Shown here one piece after another: positions 55,766 to 64,000 of a stretch of DNA of 64,000 nucleotides (position 1 is the first letter of the stretch; each line of letters opens with the position of its first letter). The stretch lies in assembly GCA_903871605.1 (NCBI GenBank), contig CAIQHF010000019.1, positions 62,001 through 126,000 of the forward strand, read 5' to 3'. The position numbers and the translations under genes were made by a program. Under the pieces are notes generated by a model. That model worked only from the letters and a program-made list of their open reading frames with translations. It did not search any database and was not told where the DNA came from. The stretch is from an uncultured Sphingomonadaceae bacterium. GTDB taxonomy: Bacteria > Pseudomonadota > Alphaproteobacteria > Sphingomonadales > Sphingomonadaceae.

Positions 55766-56662
55766 TCAGGCGCCGAGCGCGGCGGTGGTGTCGTCGAAGA
55801 GCGCGTCGACCGACAGGCGGTGCGGGATGATCTTCTGGTCGAGCGCCCAGTCGATTGCGAGCTCGATGCCCTTGCGATTGGCCTCGAGCCCGATCGGCGG
55901 ATAGATCGCCGGCACGCCGCCGTCGGTCGCCGCGCGGCTTTCGACGAGCATGCGGTGGATTTCGCCGACGATGTCGGGCCGTTCGCGTGACAGCGTCTCG
56001 TGGACCACGAACATGTGGTTGATCGGCACCACGCCCTCGCGCGCGAACCAGTCCTTGGCCGCCTCGAAGGGCTCGGGGACGAGATAGGCGACGCGCGGAT
56101 CCTTGGGCAGGTCGACGCCCTGCAGCGTCGCGGTCAACTCACCGTCGAGCATCATCTGGCCGATATCCGAGCCCTTGGGCAGCCGCTCGGTGTTGGCGGG
56201 ATCGGTATATTCGAGCAGATGCCCCTCGCCGACGGTGCACCAGGTCACCTTGTCGAGATCGACGCCATATTCGTGGCGCAGGATGCCGCGGATCCACAGC
56301 CCGGTGGTCTGCGCATAGCTGCGCACGCCGACGCGCTTGCCCTCGATGTCGCGGGGCTTGAGATCGGGGAACAGCTCCTTGTTGAAACCCGCGCAATGAT
56401 GCTGGAAGCGGCCGTTGACCGGGATCGGCAGCGCGACATAAGGCTTGCCGTAGCATTTCGCCTGCAACAGCGTGACGATCGCGAGCTCGCCGCAATCATA
56501 GGCATTCTCGCGCAGCATCGCCTTGAAGCCGTTGTGCGCCTGGTCGGGCCCGCAAATGTCGAGCGTGACGATGTCCGAGCGCACCCGGCCGTCGCGGATC
56601 GCCTTGGTGACGGGATAGTCGGCGAGATTGGTCTTGAGCGTCGTGGTCGTGGTGGTGGCCAT
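55766..56662 (-). CDS. 4,5-dihydroxyphthalate decarboxylase-like / SBP-fold protein (Pht5-like)
   Basis: RENAYDCGELAIVTLLQAKCYGKPYVALPIPVNGRFQHHCAGFN; DIEGKRVGVRSYAQTTGLWIRGILRHEYGVDLDKVTW; no signal peptide. C-terminus resembles the partial ORF at 63551. Confidence 0.75.
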   Translation of the reverse strand: MATTTTTTLKTNLADYPVTKAIRDGRVRSDIVTLDICGPDQAHNGFKAMLRENAYDCGELAIVTLLQAKCYGKPYVALPIPVNGRFQHHCAGFNKELFPDLKPRDIEGKRVGVRSYAQTTGLWIRGILRHEYGVDLDKVTWCTVGEGHLLEYTDPANTERLPKGSDIGQMMLDGELTATLQGVDLPKDPRVAYLVPEPFEAAKDWFAREGVVPINHMFVVHETLSRERPDIVGEIHRMLVESRAATDGGVPAIYPPIGLEANRKGIELAIDWALDQKIIPHRLSVDALFDDTTAALGA

Positions 56663-56675
56663 GCCCCCAGCTCCT

Positions 56676-58226
56676 TCAGTAGAGTTTGACTTCGATCAGC
56701 ACCGGGCCCTCGGCGTCGACCGAGCGGACCATCGCGGCGTGGAAATCCTCGGCGCTGTCGACGCTCACCGACGGCACGCCCATGCTCTTGGCCATCGCGC
56801 ACCAGTCGATCGTCGGGCGATCGATGTCGATCATCGCCATCGCCTGCGGCCCCGGCGTCTGCCCGGCGCCCATGTTGGTATATTCGGCCTTGAGGATCGC
56901 ATATTGGTTGTTGGCGAAGATGATCGTCGTGATCGGCAATCCTTCGCGCGCGTGCGTCCACAGCGATTGGATCGTGTACATCGCCGACCCGTCGCCGACC
57001 ATGCAGAAGGTCCGCCGGTCGGGGCAGGCGAGCGAGGCGCCGGTGGCGACGGGGGTGCCGTAGCCGATCGAGCCGCCCATGTTGTTGATCAGGTCGTGCG
57101 GCCTGGCGCCCATGGTGAACCCCATCGACTGGCGCCCGGTGGTGAGCGATTCATCGACGAGGATGCAATTGTCGGGGAGCGCCGCGGCGAGCGCATAGGC
57201 GATGCTCTCCGGGGTCAGCGCGCCCGAGGGGGCCGGGGTCTCGACCCGCGCTTGCACCAGGCCCTGCACGCCGCCGAGCCCGAGCGCGTCGACGAGCATC
57301 TCCAGCCCCGCGACGCTGTCCTCGTCGGTCTCGACCAGCGGATGGACGATCGCCTCGGGTCCCTTGAGCAGGCTCGGCTTGTCGGGATAGCTGAAGAAGG
57401 CCACCGGCTCCTTGGTCTCCAGCGTCACGATGTGCCTGAAGCTGTTGAGGAAGGCCTGCGCCTGCGGCACCGCATAGGGGATGCGCTCGAGCGGCGTGCG
57501 CCCTGCCCCACGCTCGATCCGCGCGGTGAAGAATTGCGAGCCGAGCCGCGCACCGGTGCCCGCCGCGATCTTGCCGGCGAGTTCGAGCGCACGGCCCCGC
57601 GTCGCCTTGTTGCCGAGGATGATCAGCACCGGCTCGCCCGAGCGCAGCACGCGCGCGACCTGGTCGACGCGCGCCGGATCGGGGGCGGCGGGTGTCTTGG
57701 CGAGGCCCTTGGGCACCACGACGTCGCCCGCCTCCTTCCAGGCGGTATCGCCCGGCAGGATCAGCGTCGCGATCTGCCCGGGATGCTCGGAGGCCTTGGC
57801 GACAGCATTGGCGGTGTCCCAGGCGATCGTCTTCGAGCTTTCGGCGCGGCGCACCCAGTGGCTCAAGGGTCGCGCGAGGCCCTCGATGTCCGAGGTCAGC
57901 GGTGGATCATATTTGAGGTGGCTCGCCGAATGCTCGCCGACGATGTTGACCATCCCCGAACTGGCGCGCTTGGCATTGTGGATGTTGGCGAGACCGTTGG
58001 CGAGCCCCGGCCCGAGGTGGAGCAGCGTCGACGCCGGCGTGTCGCGCATCCGGTACCAGCCGTCGGCAGCGCCCGTGCACACCCCCTCGAACAGGCAGAG
58101 CACGCTCTTCATCCGCGGATTCTCGAGCGCGGAGAGGAAGTGCATCTCCGACGTGCCGGGATTGGCGAAACAGATGTCGACGCCCTGGTCGACGAGCGTG
58201 GTGACGAGGCTTTCGGCGCCGTTCAT
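56676..58226 (-). CDS. TPP-dependent enzyme, acetolactate synthase/benzoylformate decarboxylase-like
   Basis: ICFANPGTSEMHFLSAL; GDGSAMYTIQSLWTHAREGLPITTIIFANNQYAILK (TPP-binding GDG...N). Confidence 0.9.
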   Translation of the reverse strand: MNGAESLVTTLVDQGVDICFANPGTSEMHFLSALENPRMKSVLCLFEGVCTGAADGWYRMRDTPASTLLHLGPGLANGLANIHNAKRASSGMVNIVGEHSASHLKYDPPLTSDIEGLARPLSHWVRRAESSKTIAWDTANAVAKASEHPGQIATLILPGDTAWKEAGDVVVPKGLAKTPAAPDPARVDQVARVLRSGEPVLIILGNKATRGRALELAGKIAAGTGARLGSQFFTARIERGAGRTPLERIPYAVPQAQAFLNSFRHIVTLETKEPVAFFSYPDKPSLLKGPEAIVHPLVETDEDSVAGLEMLVDALGLGGVQGLVQARVETPAPSGALTPESIAYALAAALPDNCILVDESLTTGRQSMGFTMGARPHDLINNMGGSIGYGTPVATGASLACPDRRTFCMVGDGSAMYTIQSLWTHAREGLPITTIIFANNQYAILKAEYTNMGAGQTPGPQAMAMIDIDRPTIDWCAMAKSMGVPSVSVDSAEDFHAAMVRSVDAEGPVLIEVKLY

Positions 58227-58228
58227 GG

Positions 58229-59083
58229 TCAGTATCCCGCCAGTTCGCGGCCCTGGCCGACGACGCCGTAGCTGCGCGACGGGGCCGACATCAGGAATTT
58301 ATAGCCTTCGCCGAGCAGCCGCTCGACATTCTTGGCGCCGGTATGCGGGTTGCCGACCACGACCTTGTGCTTGTGGCAGGTCTCGACGATCCGGCGCATG
58401 GCACCCATCACCTCGGGATGCTCGTACTGGCGCGCGTAGCCGAGCGCCTGGCTGAGATCGCCCTCGCCGATCAGGCAGAAGCCGATGCCCGGGACGTTGG
58501 CGAGCATGTCGTCGAGATTCTCGATCGCCTCGGGGCTCTCGATCATCAGCCCGACGAGCAACTCGCCGTGCGGCGCGAGCGGCCAGACGTCGGCCTTGGC
58601 GTAATAGTCGGGCTGGCTGAGGCCCCAATAGCGCGCCGCCGTCGCCGGACCGTCGCCGCGCACCCCCTTGGGCTCGTACAGCGCCGCGCCGGTCGGCTTG
58701 GCGTAGCGGCACGAGGCAACCGCATTATACGCCTGCGCGGCGGTCGCCACATGCGGGGTGATCACGCCGTAGACGCCGCGATCGAGCACCTGCTTTGCCT
58801 GGAACTGGTTCATCTCGACGCCGTTCGCCGGGATCCGCGCGATCGGCGTGACCGACGGCGCGACCGATCCGGTCTCTGCGATCTTCTTGCGATTGAGCAT
58901 GTACTGCAGCGCGTCGCCGAGCGCCGCGACATCATAGGGGTTGTGCTCCATCTCGAACACGATGCCGTCATAGGGCGCGTCGGTCATTTCCTGTGCGGCG
59001 AGCTTCTCGACCTTGGAGAAGCAGGTGAAGGCGGGCTTGCCCGCTTCCCAGGCGCGGATGATGCCGTTGAGACGTTCGCTCAT
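58229..59083 (-). CDS. HpcH/HpaI-family aldolase
   Basis: YDGIVFEMEHNPYDVAALGDAL; GVYGVITPHVATAAQAYNAVASCRY; LVGLMIESPEAIENLDDMLANVPGIGFCLIGEGDLSQALGY. Confidence 0.88.
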   Translation of the reverse strand: MSERLNGIIRAWEAGKPAFTCFSKVEKLAAQEMTDAPYDGIVFEMEHNPYDVAALGDALQYMLNRKKIAETGSVAPSVTPIARIPANGVEMNQFQAKQVLDRGVYGVITPHVATAAQAYNAVASCRYAKPTGAALYEPKGVRGDGPATAARYWGLSQPDYYAKADVWPLAPHGELLVGLMIESPEAIENLDDMLANVPGIGFCLIGEGDLSQALGYARQYEHPEVMGAMRRIVETCHKHKVVVGNPHTGAKNVERLLGEGYKFLMSAPSRSYGVVGQGRELAGY

Positions 59084-60102
59084 TCTGCTGCTTCCTTGCG
59101 TGCTGCTTCCTCGGGGGCCCAATACATGAAGCCCATGCCCTCGCCGGTGCCCGCGGCGGTGCGCCAGCAGGGGATGTAGTCGACCAGCGTCATCTCGGCG
59201 CCGGTGTGCTGCAGCGCCATCATCACGATGCTGTAGATCTTCACCTCGGAGGTGCCCGACTGATAATAGCCGTCTGGTATCGCGGCGAGGCCGTCGTAAT
59301 CATAGGCGGCGAGCTTGCCCATCACGTCGCGGTCGAACTGCTCGTCGTTGACGAAGTGTGACAGCCCGCCCGACGCGACCACCGCGACGCGGACGTCCTC
59401 GGGCCACGCCTCGATCGCGTCGCGCAGCACGCGGCCGAATGCGATACAGCGCTTCATCGACGGCTGGGTCGGCGGGTAGAAGAGGTTCATCAGCACGGGC
59501 ACGTGCGGCGGCGGCGCGTCGCCCATGATCTGGTGATAGACGAAGCTGTAGGCGTGCGGGACCACCGGATAGTCGGGCTTCATCCCCTGCCGCTGCGCCA
59601 TCCAGACATTCTCGGGCCAGGACTGCAGGTCGTTGAGATCGAAGCCTTCCTTCTGGAAAGCCTGGATCAGATAGGTGGCGAGCGCGGGATAGGCCTTGTG
59701 GACGACATGATGGTCGGGCGCATAGACGGGCCGCTGCGGCGGTCCGTTGTGGACCTCCTCGCCGGTGTAGATGGTGATCGACGGCGATTGATCGGGCCAG
59801 ATCTCCTTCTGGTCCTTGCCGAGGATGATCGCGACGTCGACATTGGCGCGCTTATAGGCCGCCGCCATCTCGTCGAGCGCGACGCGGCATTTTCGCGCGC
59901 GCGTGGTGCGCTCCTCGAGCGTCAGGAACGGCGCGAACGCGGCGCCGCGCTCCGCCTCCAGCGCATCGTAGGTCCAGGTCCTGTTGCGATACCAGAGCTC
60001 GGGATTCTTGCGGTCGCGCTCGCCATTGGTGAGCCAGTCCTCGGGCGCCTGCCCGAGCATGCCCGAATGCGGCACCGCCATCCCGAATACGATCTGCGCC
60101 AT
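59080..60102 (-). CDS. Class III extradiol dioxygenase (LigB superfamily)
   Basis: MAQIVFGMAVPHSGMLGQAPEDW (His12-type metal ligand), VDVAIILGKDQKEIW, VAVVASGGLSHFVNDEQFDRDV. Confidence 0.88.
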   Translation of the reverse strand: MAQIVFGMAVPHSGMLGQAPEDWLTNGERDRKNPELWYRNRTWTYDALEAERGAAFAPFLTLEERTTRARKCRVALDEMAAAYKRANVDVAIILGKDQKEIWPDQSPSITIYTGEEVHNGPPQRPVYAPDHHVVHKAYPALATYLIQAFQKEGFDLNDLQSWPENVWMAQRQGMKPDYPVVPHAYSFVYHQIMGDAPPPHVPVLMNLFYPPTQPSMKRCIAFGRVLRDAIEAWPEDVRVAVVASGGLSHFVNDEQFDRDVMGKLAAYDYDGLAAIPDGYYQSGTSEVKIYSIVMMALQHTGAEMTLVDYIPCWRTAAGTGEGMGFMYWAPEEAARKEAAE

Positions 60103-60174
60103 GTCTCAATTCTCCTGCCCGCCAGGGCATTGGGGTGCCGGCCTACTCTGCGCGCGCACGCTGCCGCCTATCCA

Positions 60175-61494
60175 TTATGCGTCGGCGGATATTGCTTCCT
60201 GCGCCTCGCCGGGCACCCTCGGCGCCCATTTGCGCTGCAACAATATCAGCGTCGAGGCGGCGCCGATCAGCAGGAAGACGAAGATCACCAGCATCGGCAG
60301 GTCGTAATTATTGTTGCTGATCTGGAGCAGCCAGCCGGTCAGCGCGCCCGCCACGCCGCCTGCCAGGCTGGTCGCGACCTGCTGCACGCCCGTCACAATC
60401 CCGACCGCCTGCTTGGGGATCAGCGTCAGCCGGCACAGCGCGAGGCTGTTGGCGGTGGTCAGCCCCAGGAAGGACAGCGAGAAGATGTTCCAGAACAGCG
60501 CGGTCGACAAAGACTGCGCATGAACGCCGAGCAGCACGGTGCAGGCGCCGAGGAAGCCCGCGATCACGAAGCTCTTGCGCACCACGACGGGATCGCCGCC
60601 GCGCTGGATCAGCTTGTCCGCCGCCCAGCCCGCCGCAACCGCGACCAGCGCGATGCCGGCGAAGCTGAAGAAGGTGTAGAGCCCCGACCCCTTCAGCGAC
60701 AGATGCCGCTGATTGTGCAGATAGTCGGGCATCCACTGCATGCAGAAGAAGGTGAAATAGCCGTAGCAGAAGTTGATGATCATCGCGCCCCACACGACCG
60801 GGCTCGTGAGGATGCTTCCGAAGGTGACCGTCGAGGCCCCTCTGCGCATCACCACGCGCGCCTCGCCCGAGGGAAGATCATTGGGCACGACCGCGACCCA
60901 CGCCGCGACCCAGACCAACCCGATCGCGCCGGTGACCAGAAACATCGCCTGCCATCCGTAATTGGTGATCAGCCACGGTGCGGCGAGCGCACCGATCGCC
61001 GGGCCGAACTTGTTACCCATCGTGAAGATGCCGACCGCCGTGCCGCTCTGCCCCTCCGCGAAATTATGGCGGATCCAGCGGTAACTGGCGGGCATCACCA
61101 CCGCCTCGGCCGCACCGACGATCAGCCGCATCATCAGCAGCGCGCCGATCGAACCGACCAGCCCGATCGCCGCCATCGCCGCGCACCAGAGCAGAAAGAT
61201 GATCGCATAGGGCCATTTTACCCCATAGCGATCGACCAGCCAGCCCGTCCCCATCTGCATCAGCCCATAGGACCAGAAGAACACCGAATTGACCCAGCCG
61301 CGATCGACGCTCGACAGCTTGAAATGCGCGACGAACGGCCCGTAGGCCAGCGCCGACCCCGTGCTCGCCCGATCCGAGAAGGCGATCATCACGCCGATCG
61401 CGAGCAGGAACAGGATTCCCCACCGCGCGAAGGCATGCGGCCTGGCGATGCTCGTCGCGGCATGCGGATCGAATGCCGTATCCACTAGCGCCAT
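60175..61494 (-). CDS. MFS transporter (anion:cation symporter-like)
   Basis: FSDRASTGSALAYGPFVAHFKLSSVDRGWVNSVFFWSYGLMQMGTGWLVDRYGVKWPYAIIFLLW; 12-TM-like pattern. Confidence 0.9.
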   Translation of the reverse strand: MALVDTAFDPHAATSIARPHAFARWGILFLLAIGVMIAFSDRASTGSALAYGPFVAHFKLSSVDRGWVNSVFFWSYGLMQMGTGWLVDRYGVKWPYAIIFLLWCAAMAAIGLVGSIGALLMMRLIVGAAEAVVMPASYRWIRHNFAEGQSGTAVGIFTMGNKFGPAIGALAAPWLITNYGWQAMFLVTGAIGLVWVAAWVAVVPNDLPSGEARVVMRRGASTVTFGSILTSPVVWGAMIINFCYGYFTFFCMQWMPDYLHNQRHLSLKGSGLYTFFSFAGIALVAVAAGWAADKLIQRGGDPVVVRKSFVIAGFLGACTVLLGVHAQSLSTALFWNIFSLSFLGLTTANSLALCRLTLIPKQAVGIVTGVQQVATSLAGGVAGALTGWLLQISNNNYDLPMLVIFVFLLIGAASTLILLQRKWAPRVPGEAQEAISADA

Positions 61495-61522
61495 GGGCTC
61501 GTCTTTCCGGTCATGTCGTTGA

Positions 61523-62377
61523 TCACTCCGCAAGCGACGGATACAGATGTTGCGCGGTGCCGTGGAAGATCCACTCGAGATCGTCGGACGAAAGCGTTGC
61601 GAGCCGGCTCTTGGCGGTCGCGAGTATCTCCGACAGCGTACCCGGCGAGGTCGGGAAGTTCGATCCCCACGCCATCCGCCTGGCGCCGAAGGCCTCGACC
61701 AGTCTGGGGAACAGCGTCTCGGGAGTAGCCGCGCCCTTTTTGGAATCGCCCATGATCCGCGGGGTGAGCTTGAGATAGATATTCTCGATCGGCGCCAGAT
61801 CGAACAGGCTCTGCGCCGCCGCATAGGGCGGACCGTCGGTGACGTCCGGCCGCCCGAGATGATCGAGGATGATCGCGACGTCGGGGAAGCGCCTGGCCAG
61901 CGCGGTCACCTGCGGCAGCCCGACCGGGCCGGTCTGGATGCACATCGACAGGCCGAGTTCGCCGCACACGTCCCAGGCGGGGAAGGATTTCGGATCGTCG
62001 AGCTCGCTCGCATCGAACTCCTTGGTGCTGCCGCCGGTGAACAGCCGGAGGCCGCCCAGTCCCTTGGCGACCCAGTCGCGGATCACGTCCGGCGCGTCGA
62101 GCTGGAGCACGTCGACCGAGCCCACCGCCAGCAGGCGCTCAGGGTAGCGCGTGCAGGCATCGACGACATAGCTGTTGTCGAAGCCATAGGTGGTCGAGCT
62201 GTGGACGACGGCGGCCTTAGCGACGCCGGCCTCGTCCATCGCCGCGATCAGGCTCTCGACCGTGCTCGGCCGCTCCTGCGACCAGTCCGATCGTTTTCCG
62301 AACAGCGGCGCCGGCGGATAGGCGCGCTCGTCGTCCGAAATGACGTGCGGGTGGATGTCGACATAGTGAGACGGCAT
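61523..62377 (-). CDS. Amidohydrolase 2 family, similar in kind to 2-pyrone-4,6-dicarboxylate lactonase (LigI-like)
   Basis: DIHPHVISDD metal-binding start, FPDVAIILDHLGRPDVTDG, RMAWGSNFPTSPG C-terminal motif. Confidence 0.78.
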   Translation of the reverse strand: MPSHYVDIHPHVISDDERAYPPAPLFGKRSDWSQERPSTVESLIAAMDEAGVAKAAVVHSSTTYGFDNSYVVDACTRYPERLLAVGSVDVLQLDAPDVIRDWVAKGLGGLRLFTGGSTKEFDASELDDPKSFPAWDVCGELGLSMCIQTGPVGLPQVTALARRFPDVAIILDHLGRPDVTDGPPYAAAQSLFDLAPIENIYLKLTPRIMGDSKKGAATPETLFPRLVEAFGARRMAWGSNFPTSPGTLSEILATAKSRLATLSSDDLEWIFHGTAQHLYPSLAE

Positions 62378-62499
62378 GCGAGTCTATCCCCTCTTGCCCG
62401 GCGACGGCGCGGGTCTCGTTCGGCCCCGCCATCCTCCCTGCCGATGCGCGCGGGAATTTGATCTTGTGCCGCGAGCCATAAGATCGGCGACCTTGGGTC

Positions 62500-63525
62500 T
62501 CAGCGACCCTGCTGCTTGAGCAGCGCGTCGAGGCGCGGATAGACGCGCCGCGCATTGCCCTCGAAGATCTTGGCCTTGTCGGCCGCGCCAAGCGGCAGCG
62601 CATCGACATAGCGCTTGGTGTCGTCGAAATATTCGCCGGTGTTCGGATCGCGCCCGCGCACCGCGCCGATCATCTCGGAGCCGAACAGCACATTGTCGGT
62701 TGGGATCACCTTGGTCAGCAGCTCGACGCCGGGCAGATGATAGACGCAGGTGTCGAAGAAGATGTTGTCGAGCAGGCCCTCGAGCGGGCGGTCCATCATC
62801 TCGAGGCTCATGCCGCGATAGCGACCCCAATGATAGGGCACCGCGCCGCCGCCGTGCGGGATGACCAGCCGCAGCGTCGGGAAATCCTTGAACAGGTTCG
62901 ACTGCAGGATCTGCATGAACACCGAGGTATCGGCATTGAGATAATGCGCCCCGGTGCCGTGGAAATTGGGATTGCACGAGGCGGCGACGTGCACCATGCC
63001 GGGCACGTCGAGCTCGCACAACGCCTCGAACAGCGGATACCATTCGCGATCGGTGAAGGGCTTGCCGGTCCAATAGCCGCCGGTCGGATCGGGATTGATG
63101 TTGCAGCCGACGAAGCCGAGCTGCTCGACGCAGCGCCTGAGCTCGGGCACGGAGTTGGCGGGCGGCGCGCCCGGCGACTGCGGCAGCTGGCAGACCGGCA
63201 CGAAATTGTCCGGATAGAGTTCGGCGACGCGCTTGACGTTGTCGTTCGACACCTCGGCCCATTCGAGGCTGGTGCGCTCGTTGCCGAGATGATGCGACAT
63301 CAATCCTGCGATCGGCGAGAACAGCGTGACGTCGCTGCCGCGCTCCTGCTGGAGCTTGAGCTGGCCGCCCTCGATCCCCTCGCGGATCTGGTCGTCGGTC
63401 AGGATCGCGCCGTCGCTCCGCTTGGGCGCATTGGCGGGATCGTTGGCGGAATCGACCTGCTTCGTCCGCCAATCCCGGAAGGACTTGGGAACGGTGGTGA
63501 AGTGGCCGTGGCAATCGATGATCAT
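62500..63525 (-). CDS. ligJ: 4-oxalomesaconate hydratase-like amidohydrolase
   Basis: MIIDCHGHFTTVPKSFRDWR; ELRRCVEQLGFVGCNINPDPTGGYW; LRLVIPHGGGAVPYHWGRYRGM; NVLFGSEMIGAVRGRDPNTGEYFDDTKRYVDAL resemble LigJ as recalled from Sphingobium SYK-6. Confidence 0.85.
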   Translation of the reverse strand: MIIDCHGHFTTVPKSFRDWRTKQVDSANDPANAPKRSDGAILTDDQIREGIEGGQLKLQQERGSDVTLFSPIAGLMSHHLGNERTSLEWAEVSNDNVKRVAELYPDNFVPVCQLPQSPGAPPANSVPELRRCVEQLGFVGCNINPDPTGGYWTGKPFTDREWYPLFEALCELDVPGMVHVAASCNPNFHGTGAHYLNADTSVFMQILQSNLFKDFPTLRLVIPHGGGAVPYHWGRYRGMSLEMMDRPLEGLLDNIFFDTCVYHLPGVELLTKVIPTDNVLFGSEMIGAVRGRDPNTGEYFDDTKRYVDALPLGAADKAKIFEGNARRVYPRLDALLKQQGR

Positions 63526-63550
63526 GTCGGTAATCCTGGCAAAGGAGCAA

Positions 63551-64000
63551 TCAGGCGGGCTGGCGCGCCGCGACCGTCTCGGGATCGACGAAAAGTTCGT
63601 CCATCGTCATGCGGCGCGGGGTGAGGCCCTGCTCGAACGCGGTCTTCTCGAGCGCCTCGATCGTCGGGCGATTGGCCTCGATACCGTAGGGCAGCGGATC
63701 GGCGCCCACGATCGCCTGCAGCGCGCGATATTTGTCCGCGCCCGCGCCGGTCGCCTCGCCCGCGTTGAGCTTGGCGACCCATTCGTCCTTGGCGCGAGTG
63801 AACGCATCGTTGAGCGACTTGGCGACCCAGGGATGCTCGGCAAGCACCGCATCCTTGACGACGATCGTGCCGTGCATCGGATAGACGCCGGTGCGCTTGT
63901 AATAGTCGGCCTCGGCCTCGGCGGCATTGGGAATGAGATCGGGATAGTCCGCCTCGACCTCCTGCCACCCCCCCGTCGGCGCTCCGGTCCGGCCGATGCC
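63551..64000 (-). CDS. 4,5-dihydroxyphthalate decarboxylase-like protein, N-terminus cut by right edge
   Basis: Open frame to the edge: GIGRTGAPTGGWQEVEADYPDLIPNAAEAEADYYKRTGVYPMHGTIVVKDAVLAEHPWVAKSLNDAF...; C-terminus LPYGIEANRPTIEALEKTAFEQGLTPRRMTMDELFVDP. Confidence 0.75.
   Translation of the reverse strand, partial: GIGRTGAPTGGWQEVEADYPDLIPNAAEAEADYYKRTGVYPMHGTIVVKDAVLAEHPWVAKSLNDAFTRAKDEWVAKLNAGEATGAGADKYRALQAIVGADPLPYGIEANRPTIEALEKTAFEQGLTPRRMTMDELFVDPETVAARQPA

Follow-up and report, generated by a model that had tools for sequence, protein, structure and literature searches.

What does a sphingomonad do with an operon that couples a hydratase of the protocatechuate 4,5-cleavage type to a distant class III ring-opening dioxygenase and to two relatives of the phthalate enzyme Pht5? 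The question is raised by eight minus-strand genes at 55766->64000 of the window, by which we mean the whole 64,000-nt stretch of contig CAIQHF010000019.1 analyzed here, part of a 4.28-Mb assembly (GCA_903871605.1) of an uncultured Sphingomonadaceae bacterium. The operon is real and widely conserved, is apparently undescribed, and very probably degrades a plant-type aromatic acid. The best explanation, to which we give a probability of about one half, is that the operon serves to import a catechol- or pyrogallol-type aromatic acid, open its ring and degrade it completely, with the two Pht5-like proteins (here PhtA and PhtB) acting after ring opening. An earlier sequence-only reading had described the layout and interpreted it as a catabolic operon; its gene set, coordinates, gaps and ATGA overlap were all reproduced, and the catabolic interpretation stands. 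The genes, listed from PhtA to PhtB, are as follows.

63551->64000, minus strand: PhtA, Pht5-like protein, 3' part; 163 bits full length to 9jp7, 4,5-dihydroxyphthalate decarboxylase
62500-63525, minus strand: LigJ, 4-oxalomesaconate / 2-keto-4-carboxy-3-hexenedioate hydratase; 475 bits to 2gwg, 457 bits to 6dwv/6dxq
61523-62377, minus strand: LigI-like PF04909 amidohydrolase with Asn240 at the catalytic Asp position; 35 bits to 2-pyrone-4,6-dicarboxylate (PDC) hydrolase
60175-61494, minus strand: major facilitator superfamily (MFS) transporter, PF07690
59080-60102, minus strand: class III extradiol dioxygenase of the LigB family (PF02900), placed in the LigZ branch; H12, Q98, E286 and H249 at metal/base positions
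58229-59083, minus strand: HpcH/HpaI-type class II pyruvate aldolase (PF03328); ATGA overlap with the dioxygenase gene
56676-58226, minus strand: thiamine pyrophosphate (TPP)-dependent enzyme of family NF005760 (named acetolactate synthase large subunit), 721 bits
55766-56662, minus strand: PhtB, second Pht5-like protein, forming its own clade in the tree; 77 bits to 9jp7

In this order the intergenic gaps are 25, 122, 28, 72, -4 (the ATGA overlap), 2 and 13 bp. Family membership was confirmed for six of the genes with Pfam and for the Pht5-like pair through a relative of solved structure. The PhtA gene runs beyond the window end to ~64543 in the assembly, where a TTG start is preceded by GGAGG.

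A dioxygenase profile run against 85,462 species genomes returned 80 homologous loci, hosted by Sphingomonadales, Caulobacter, Nitrospirillum and Burkholderiales. PhtA, LigJ, the LigI-like protein, the dioxygenase, the aldolase and PhtB are encoded together within the fetched stretch in 62 of the 80, and the six genes are collinear in 60 of those 62, with enzyme identities of 64–94%. Chance gene order is thereby excluded. The TPP gene is absent from 12 of the 62 operons, and the transporter slot is variable, the MFS gene being swapped for an annotated tripartite tricarboxylate transporter (TTT) substrate-binding protein in Acidovorax. Of the remaining loci, most lie on truncated contigs, have an interrupted set, or consist of an MFS-dioxygenase pair away from the other genes; all 10 genomes tested among those with an incomplete dioxygenase locus nevertheless encode orthologues of PhtA, LigJ and the aldolase at some place. 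In the dioxygenase tree, operonic and solo copies are intermixed and Comamonadaceae are nested beside Alphaproteobacteria, the latter being the pattern expected after horizontal transfer. The idea that solo dioxygenases are a distinct paralogue was rejected, since they are scattered among the operonic copies and their hosts carry the rest of the set. A literature search limited to open-licence PubMed Central papers returned no description matching the operon or its gene combination. The naringenin fde operon of Herbaspirillum was considered, with no gene-level match in papers on it, and a paper on berberine demethylenation, consulted for a related cluster, describes no ring-cleavage genes.

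LigJ looks bona fide, being by sequence a close relative of proven 4-oxalomesaconate (OMA) hydratases: its matches to their solved structures cover the full length, vs. a score of 184 bits against LigY. The HpaI-type aldolase likewise looks bona fide; a by-eye comparison with what we take to be the catalytic His/Arg/Glu/Asp residues of Escherichia coli HpaI suggests that these are kept. Both family calls agree with the sequence-only reading, as does the lack of a LigC-type dehydrogenase, none of which was recognised in the operon, in the 10 kb upstream, or among the downstream genes. A LigJ unaccompanied by LigC would suit a trihydroxy substrate, and a gallate or 3-O-methylgallate route had been proposed in which the dioxygenase would open either compound, LigI would hydrolyse PDC, and LigJ and the HpaI-type aldolase would finish, leaving the Pht5-like proteins without a role. 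The known gallate pathway (DesB/GalA, GalD, GalB/LigJ, GalC/LigK) is also a LigC-free set feeding LigJ, and the operon LysR is distantly related to that of the gallate locus in this genome. The window operon, however, has another dioxygenase branch and another aldolase, and two conserved Pht5-like proteins would be left idle. We consider this route unlikely, and the LigI-like protein, the rest of the genome and the dioxygenase all bear on that judgement.

The LigI-like protein is only a weak match to PDC hydrolases (35 bits), and the Asn240 of its WGSN motif is aligned to an Asp in 2ffi and 4dlf. This is the catalytic Asp, which we take to be D248 in LigI, and LigI mutants altered there lose activity. 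Asn240 is invariant in a 19-row alignment and conserved in a 59-row alignment, and a Paracoccus homologue (53% identity) also has Asn at this position. The PDB chain 4dia shows Asn there as well; it is presumably the D248N variant of LigI. Because Asn replaces the catalytic Asp throughout the orthologues, the PDC hydrolase role assigned to this protein earlier is doubtful and, judging by the alignments, unlikely.

A separate canonical gallate/protocatechuate island is present in the same genome (contig C43:66001-86000), with the order DesB, TonB receptor, AraC, tannase-like, GalD-like, LigK-like, LysR and a second LigJ, followed by beta-ketoadipate genes. Its LigJ is 59% identical to the window LigJ, its LysR 33% identical to the operon LysR, and the tannase-like family was recognised by eye. 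Given this separate locus, gallate is not the obvious substrate of the operon. The operon may be self-contained, as the earlier reading suggested. GalD/LigU-like genes occur elsewhere in the genome in 42 of 44 hosts and DesB/LigB-like genes in 41 of 44, but Sphingomonas kyeonggiensis had neither match at the cut-offs used.

The gallate route gains some support from DesA/LigM-like tetrahydrofolate O-demethylases near the dioxygenase. In Novosphingobium rosa and Paraburkholderia SG-MS1 these adjoin second dioxygenase copies together with MetF-, PurU- and FolD-like genes (one-carbon, or C1, genes recognised by eye), and an O-demethylase set lies beside the dioxygenase of Nitrospirillum iridis. 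DesA/LigM is found in only 11 of the 44 hosts, however, and the window genome has no match, so methoxylated precursors would be optional: some hosts may start from an O-methylated compound, and LigM/DesA was rejected as an obligatory partner. The N. rosa genes belong to a ~50-kb island in which the complete operon is accompanied by another MFS-dioxygenase pair, by three LigM/DesA homologues and by genes of C1-folate metabolism (L051, L134, L135).

The dioxygenase is a distant member of the LigB family (55 bits to PF02900) and scores 44 bits against a gallate dioxygenase model with a cut-off of 412, which places it outside the DesB/GalA type; the earlier expectation of a DesB/DesZ-like gallate-type enzyme was not borne out. 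Relatives with 30–42% identity often adjoin LigJ/LigY-related amidohydrolases, some of them also RraA-type aldolases, and a Polymorphobacter dioxygenase with 40% identity has a true LigY (545 bits) as its neighbour. On this basis we place the window enzyme in the LigZ branch, the comparison being with these relatives rather than with LigZ of Sphingobium SYK-6 itself. A DQ motif is invariant and common to the dioxygenase and its LigY-adjacent relatives. It puts Gln98 at the position of the DesB NDH His in all 28 sequences aligned, the window enzyme and 27 homologues; H12 and E286 are retained, as is His249, presumably the base. As aligned, the canonical 2-His-1-Glu iron site of the LigB superfamily would thus be incomplete, with H12 and E286 present and the second iron-ligand His replaced by Gln98. 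The AlphaFold model of the enzyme is of good quality, with a mean pLDDT of 81.8 and a pTM of 0.87. A canonical LigB-type dioxygenase lies near the operon in two sphingomonads (L041:15207-16043, NF009901, 380 bits; L053:17970-18806).

A dioxygenase branch that includes the neighbour of a true LigY raises the question of a LigX-LigZ-LigY route for biaryl lignin dimers, as in 5,5'-dehydrodivanillate (DDVA) degradation, and a LigXa-domain Rieske gene is indeed found inside the operon of Novosphingobium flavum. That gene occurs in only one locus, however (a VanA-like Rieske gene stands beside three loci), and the amidohydrolase of the operon is LigJ (475 bits) over LigY (184 bits). The operon further differs from the DDVA pathway in having HpaI-type rather than RraA-type aldolases and in the Pht5-like pair. 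We regard a biaryl pathway as very improbable.

PhtA matches the decarboxylase 9jp7 over residues 10-331 (163 bits vs. 15 bits for the best binding protein), PhtB is a weaker relative of the same enzyme (77 bits), and no signal peptide is visible in either sequence. PhtA is therefore a full-length Pht5-family protein and, by its lack of a signal peptide, cytoplasmic, and a role of the pair as uptake binding proteins, which the sequence-only reading had left open, is rejected as unlikely. In the tree, PhtA and PhtB form two separate clades that co-occur in all contexts examined; PhtA groups with authentic Pht5 of Polaromonas CJ2 yet stays apart from Pht5. The phthalate 4,5-pathway (Pht3-Pht4-Pht5) shares with the operon its Pht5-family proteins and a transporter slot holding an MFS or annotated TTT binding protein. 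The operon, in contrast, has neither a Rieske phthalate dioxygenase nor a cis-diol dehydrogenase, and its Pht5 paralogues are ~30% identical to authentic Pht5.

The full-length match of PhtA to a 4,5-dihydroxyphthalate decarboxylase would suit a role before ring opening, in which PhtA and PhtB decarboxylate hydroxylated o-phthalate-like acids and the dioxygenase then opens the ring. One such acid, 3,4,5-trihydroxyphthalate, could derive from ellagic acid or hexahydroxydiphenate. The LigZ branch acts on biaryls, a tannase-like gene (family by eye) stands beside the gallate locus, and exported lactonase-family proteins accompany the operon: TolB-like (L109:14471-16399) and PF10282 lactonase (L096:4226-5416) beta-propellers each occur at 41 of 87 loci. 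A possible substrate is ellagic acid or another acid of this kind from tannin or lignin. For a biaryl, however, the LigY C-C hydrolase would be expected rather than LigJ; the substrate is a guess; and PhtA and PhtB recur without a LigZ-branch dioxygenase. We hold this order of steps to be unlikely too.

That recurrence is seen in two settings. One is a sister operon with the order aldolase-PhtA-PhtB-VOC protein-LigJ-SDR-FAH (L131:6149-12601, L132, L137), shared by Burkholderia WSM2230, Paraburkholderia SG-MS1 and Caballeronia grimmiae. Identities to the window proteins in the first two are 52% for the aldolase, ~42–44% for PhtA, ~38–40% for PhtB and 59% for LigJ, and the VOC protein, read by eye, has the H/H/E pattern of type I extradiol enzymes. 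In Paracoccus methylovorus the core lies on the mobilizable plasmid p2 (L136, L140) with a flavin-dependent oxidoreductase and a flavin reductase (PhtA 64%, PhtB 34%, LigI-like 53%, LigJ 59%, aldolase 52%), and no ring-cleaving dioxygenase is annotated in the 32 kb around it. P. denitrificans also has PhtA, PhtB, LigJ and the aldolase. Because this core accompanies different ring-opening steps, we infer that its four enzymes come into play once the ring is open, as a lower module that can be re-used; this is our chief ground for placing PhtA and PhtB there.

The preferred explanation, with the Pht5-like pair downstream of ring cleavage, would run as follows. The MFS protein would import the aromatic acid and the LigZ-branch dioxygenase would open its ring. 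PhtA, PhtB and the LigI-like protein would then convert the ring-fission polycarboxylate to the LigJ substrate by decarboxylation and/or a double-bond shift, taking over the job of LigI and LigU in the protocatechuate 4,5-pathway. LigJ would add water to the converted acid, and the HpaI-type aldolase, replacing LigK, would split the product to pyruvate and oxaloacetate or a close analogue; the TPP enzyme may be an optional side step. Gene content and order, their conservation, the families, the active-site substitutions and the return of the four-gene core in other settings are observed; this order of steps, the place of PhtA and PhtB in it, the products and the substrate are what we infer. 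The protocatechuate 4,5-cleavage pathway of SYK-6 (LigABCIUJK) resembles this scheme in its LigJ hydratase and in the presumed end products pyruvate and oxaloacetate. The operon, in contrast, is without LigC and LigU, its LigI-like protein is without the catalytic Asp, and it adds the Pht5-like pair and a LigZ-branch dioxygenase.

Several observations weigh against this explanation. Pht5 itself works before ring cleavage, so PhtA and PhtB could too; a LigU/GalD-like gene is present in nearly all hosts, so a substitute for LigU may not be needed; and the sister operon is without a LigI-like gene, while a LigI-like relative nearby has the ordinary Asp. More tentatively still, PhtA and PhtB might be a new obligate Pht5-fold pair working on ring-fission acids rather than intact aromatics, which together with LigJ and the HpaI-type aldolase would form a transferable lower module serving at least three ring-opening chemistries, with the LigZ branch cleaving with Gln in place of one iron His.

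Beyond PhtA, a divergent LysR gene comes first, followed by genes for a TonB receptor, an alpha/beta hydrolase and a PEBP-carboxylesterase; on the PhtB side are an NRAMP gene and an ATP-binding cassette (ABC) transporter on the opposite strand. Across the loci, the operon repeatedly has genes for porins, TonB receptors and AraC or LysR regulators as neighbours. An Rfam scan of the window gave zero matches.

Our verdict is that the operon is a new version of a protocatechuate-4,5/gallate type pathway. At least three of its features, the Pht5-like pair, the Asn-type LigI relative and the Gln-type dioxygenase, are unexplained by the earlier gallate scheme, and its current annotation is piecemeal and misleading (protocatechuate 3,4-dioxygenase, acetolactate synthase, ABC binding proteins). 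The hosts include soil, plant-associated and opportunistic bacteria. If the explanation is true, these organisms would have a modular route that feeds aromatic acids into central metabolism, a new role for the Pht5 fold, and an unusual iron site among class III dioxygenases.

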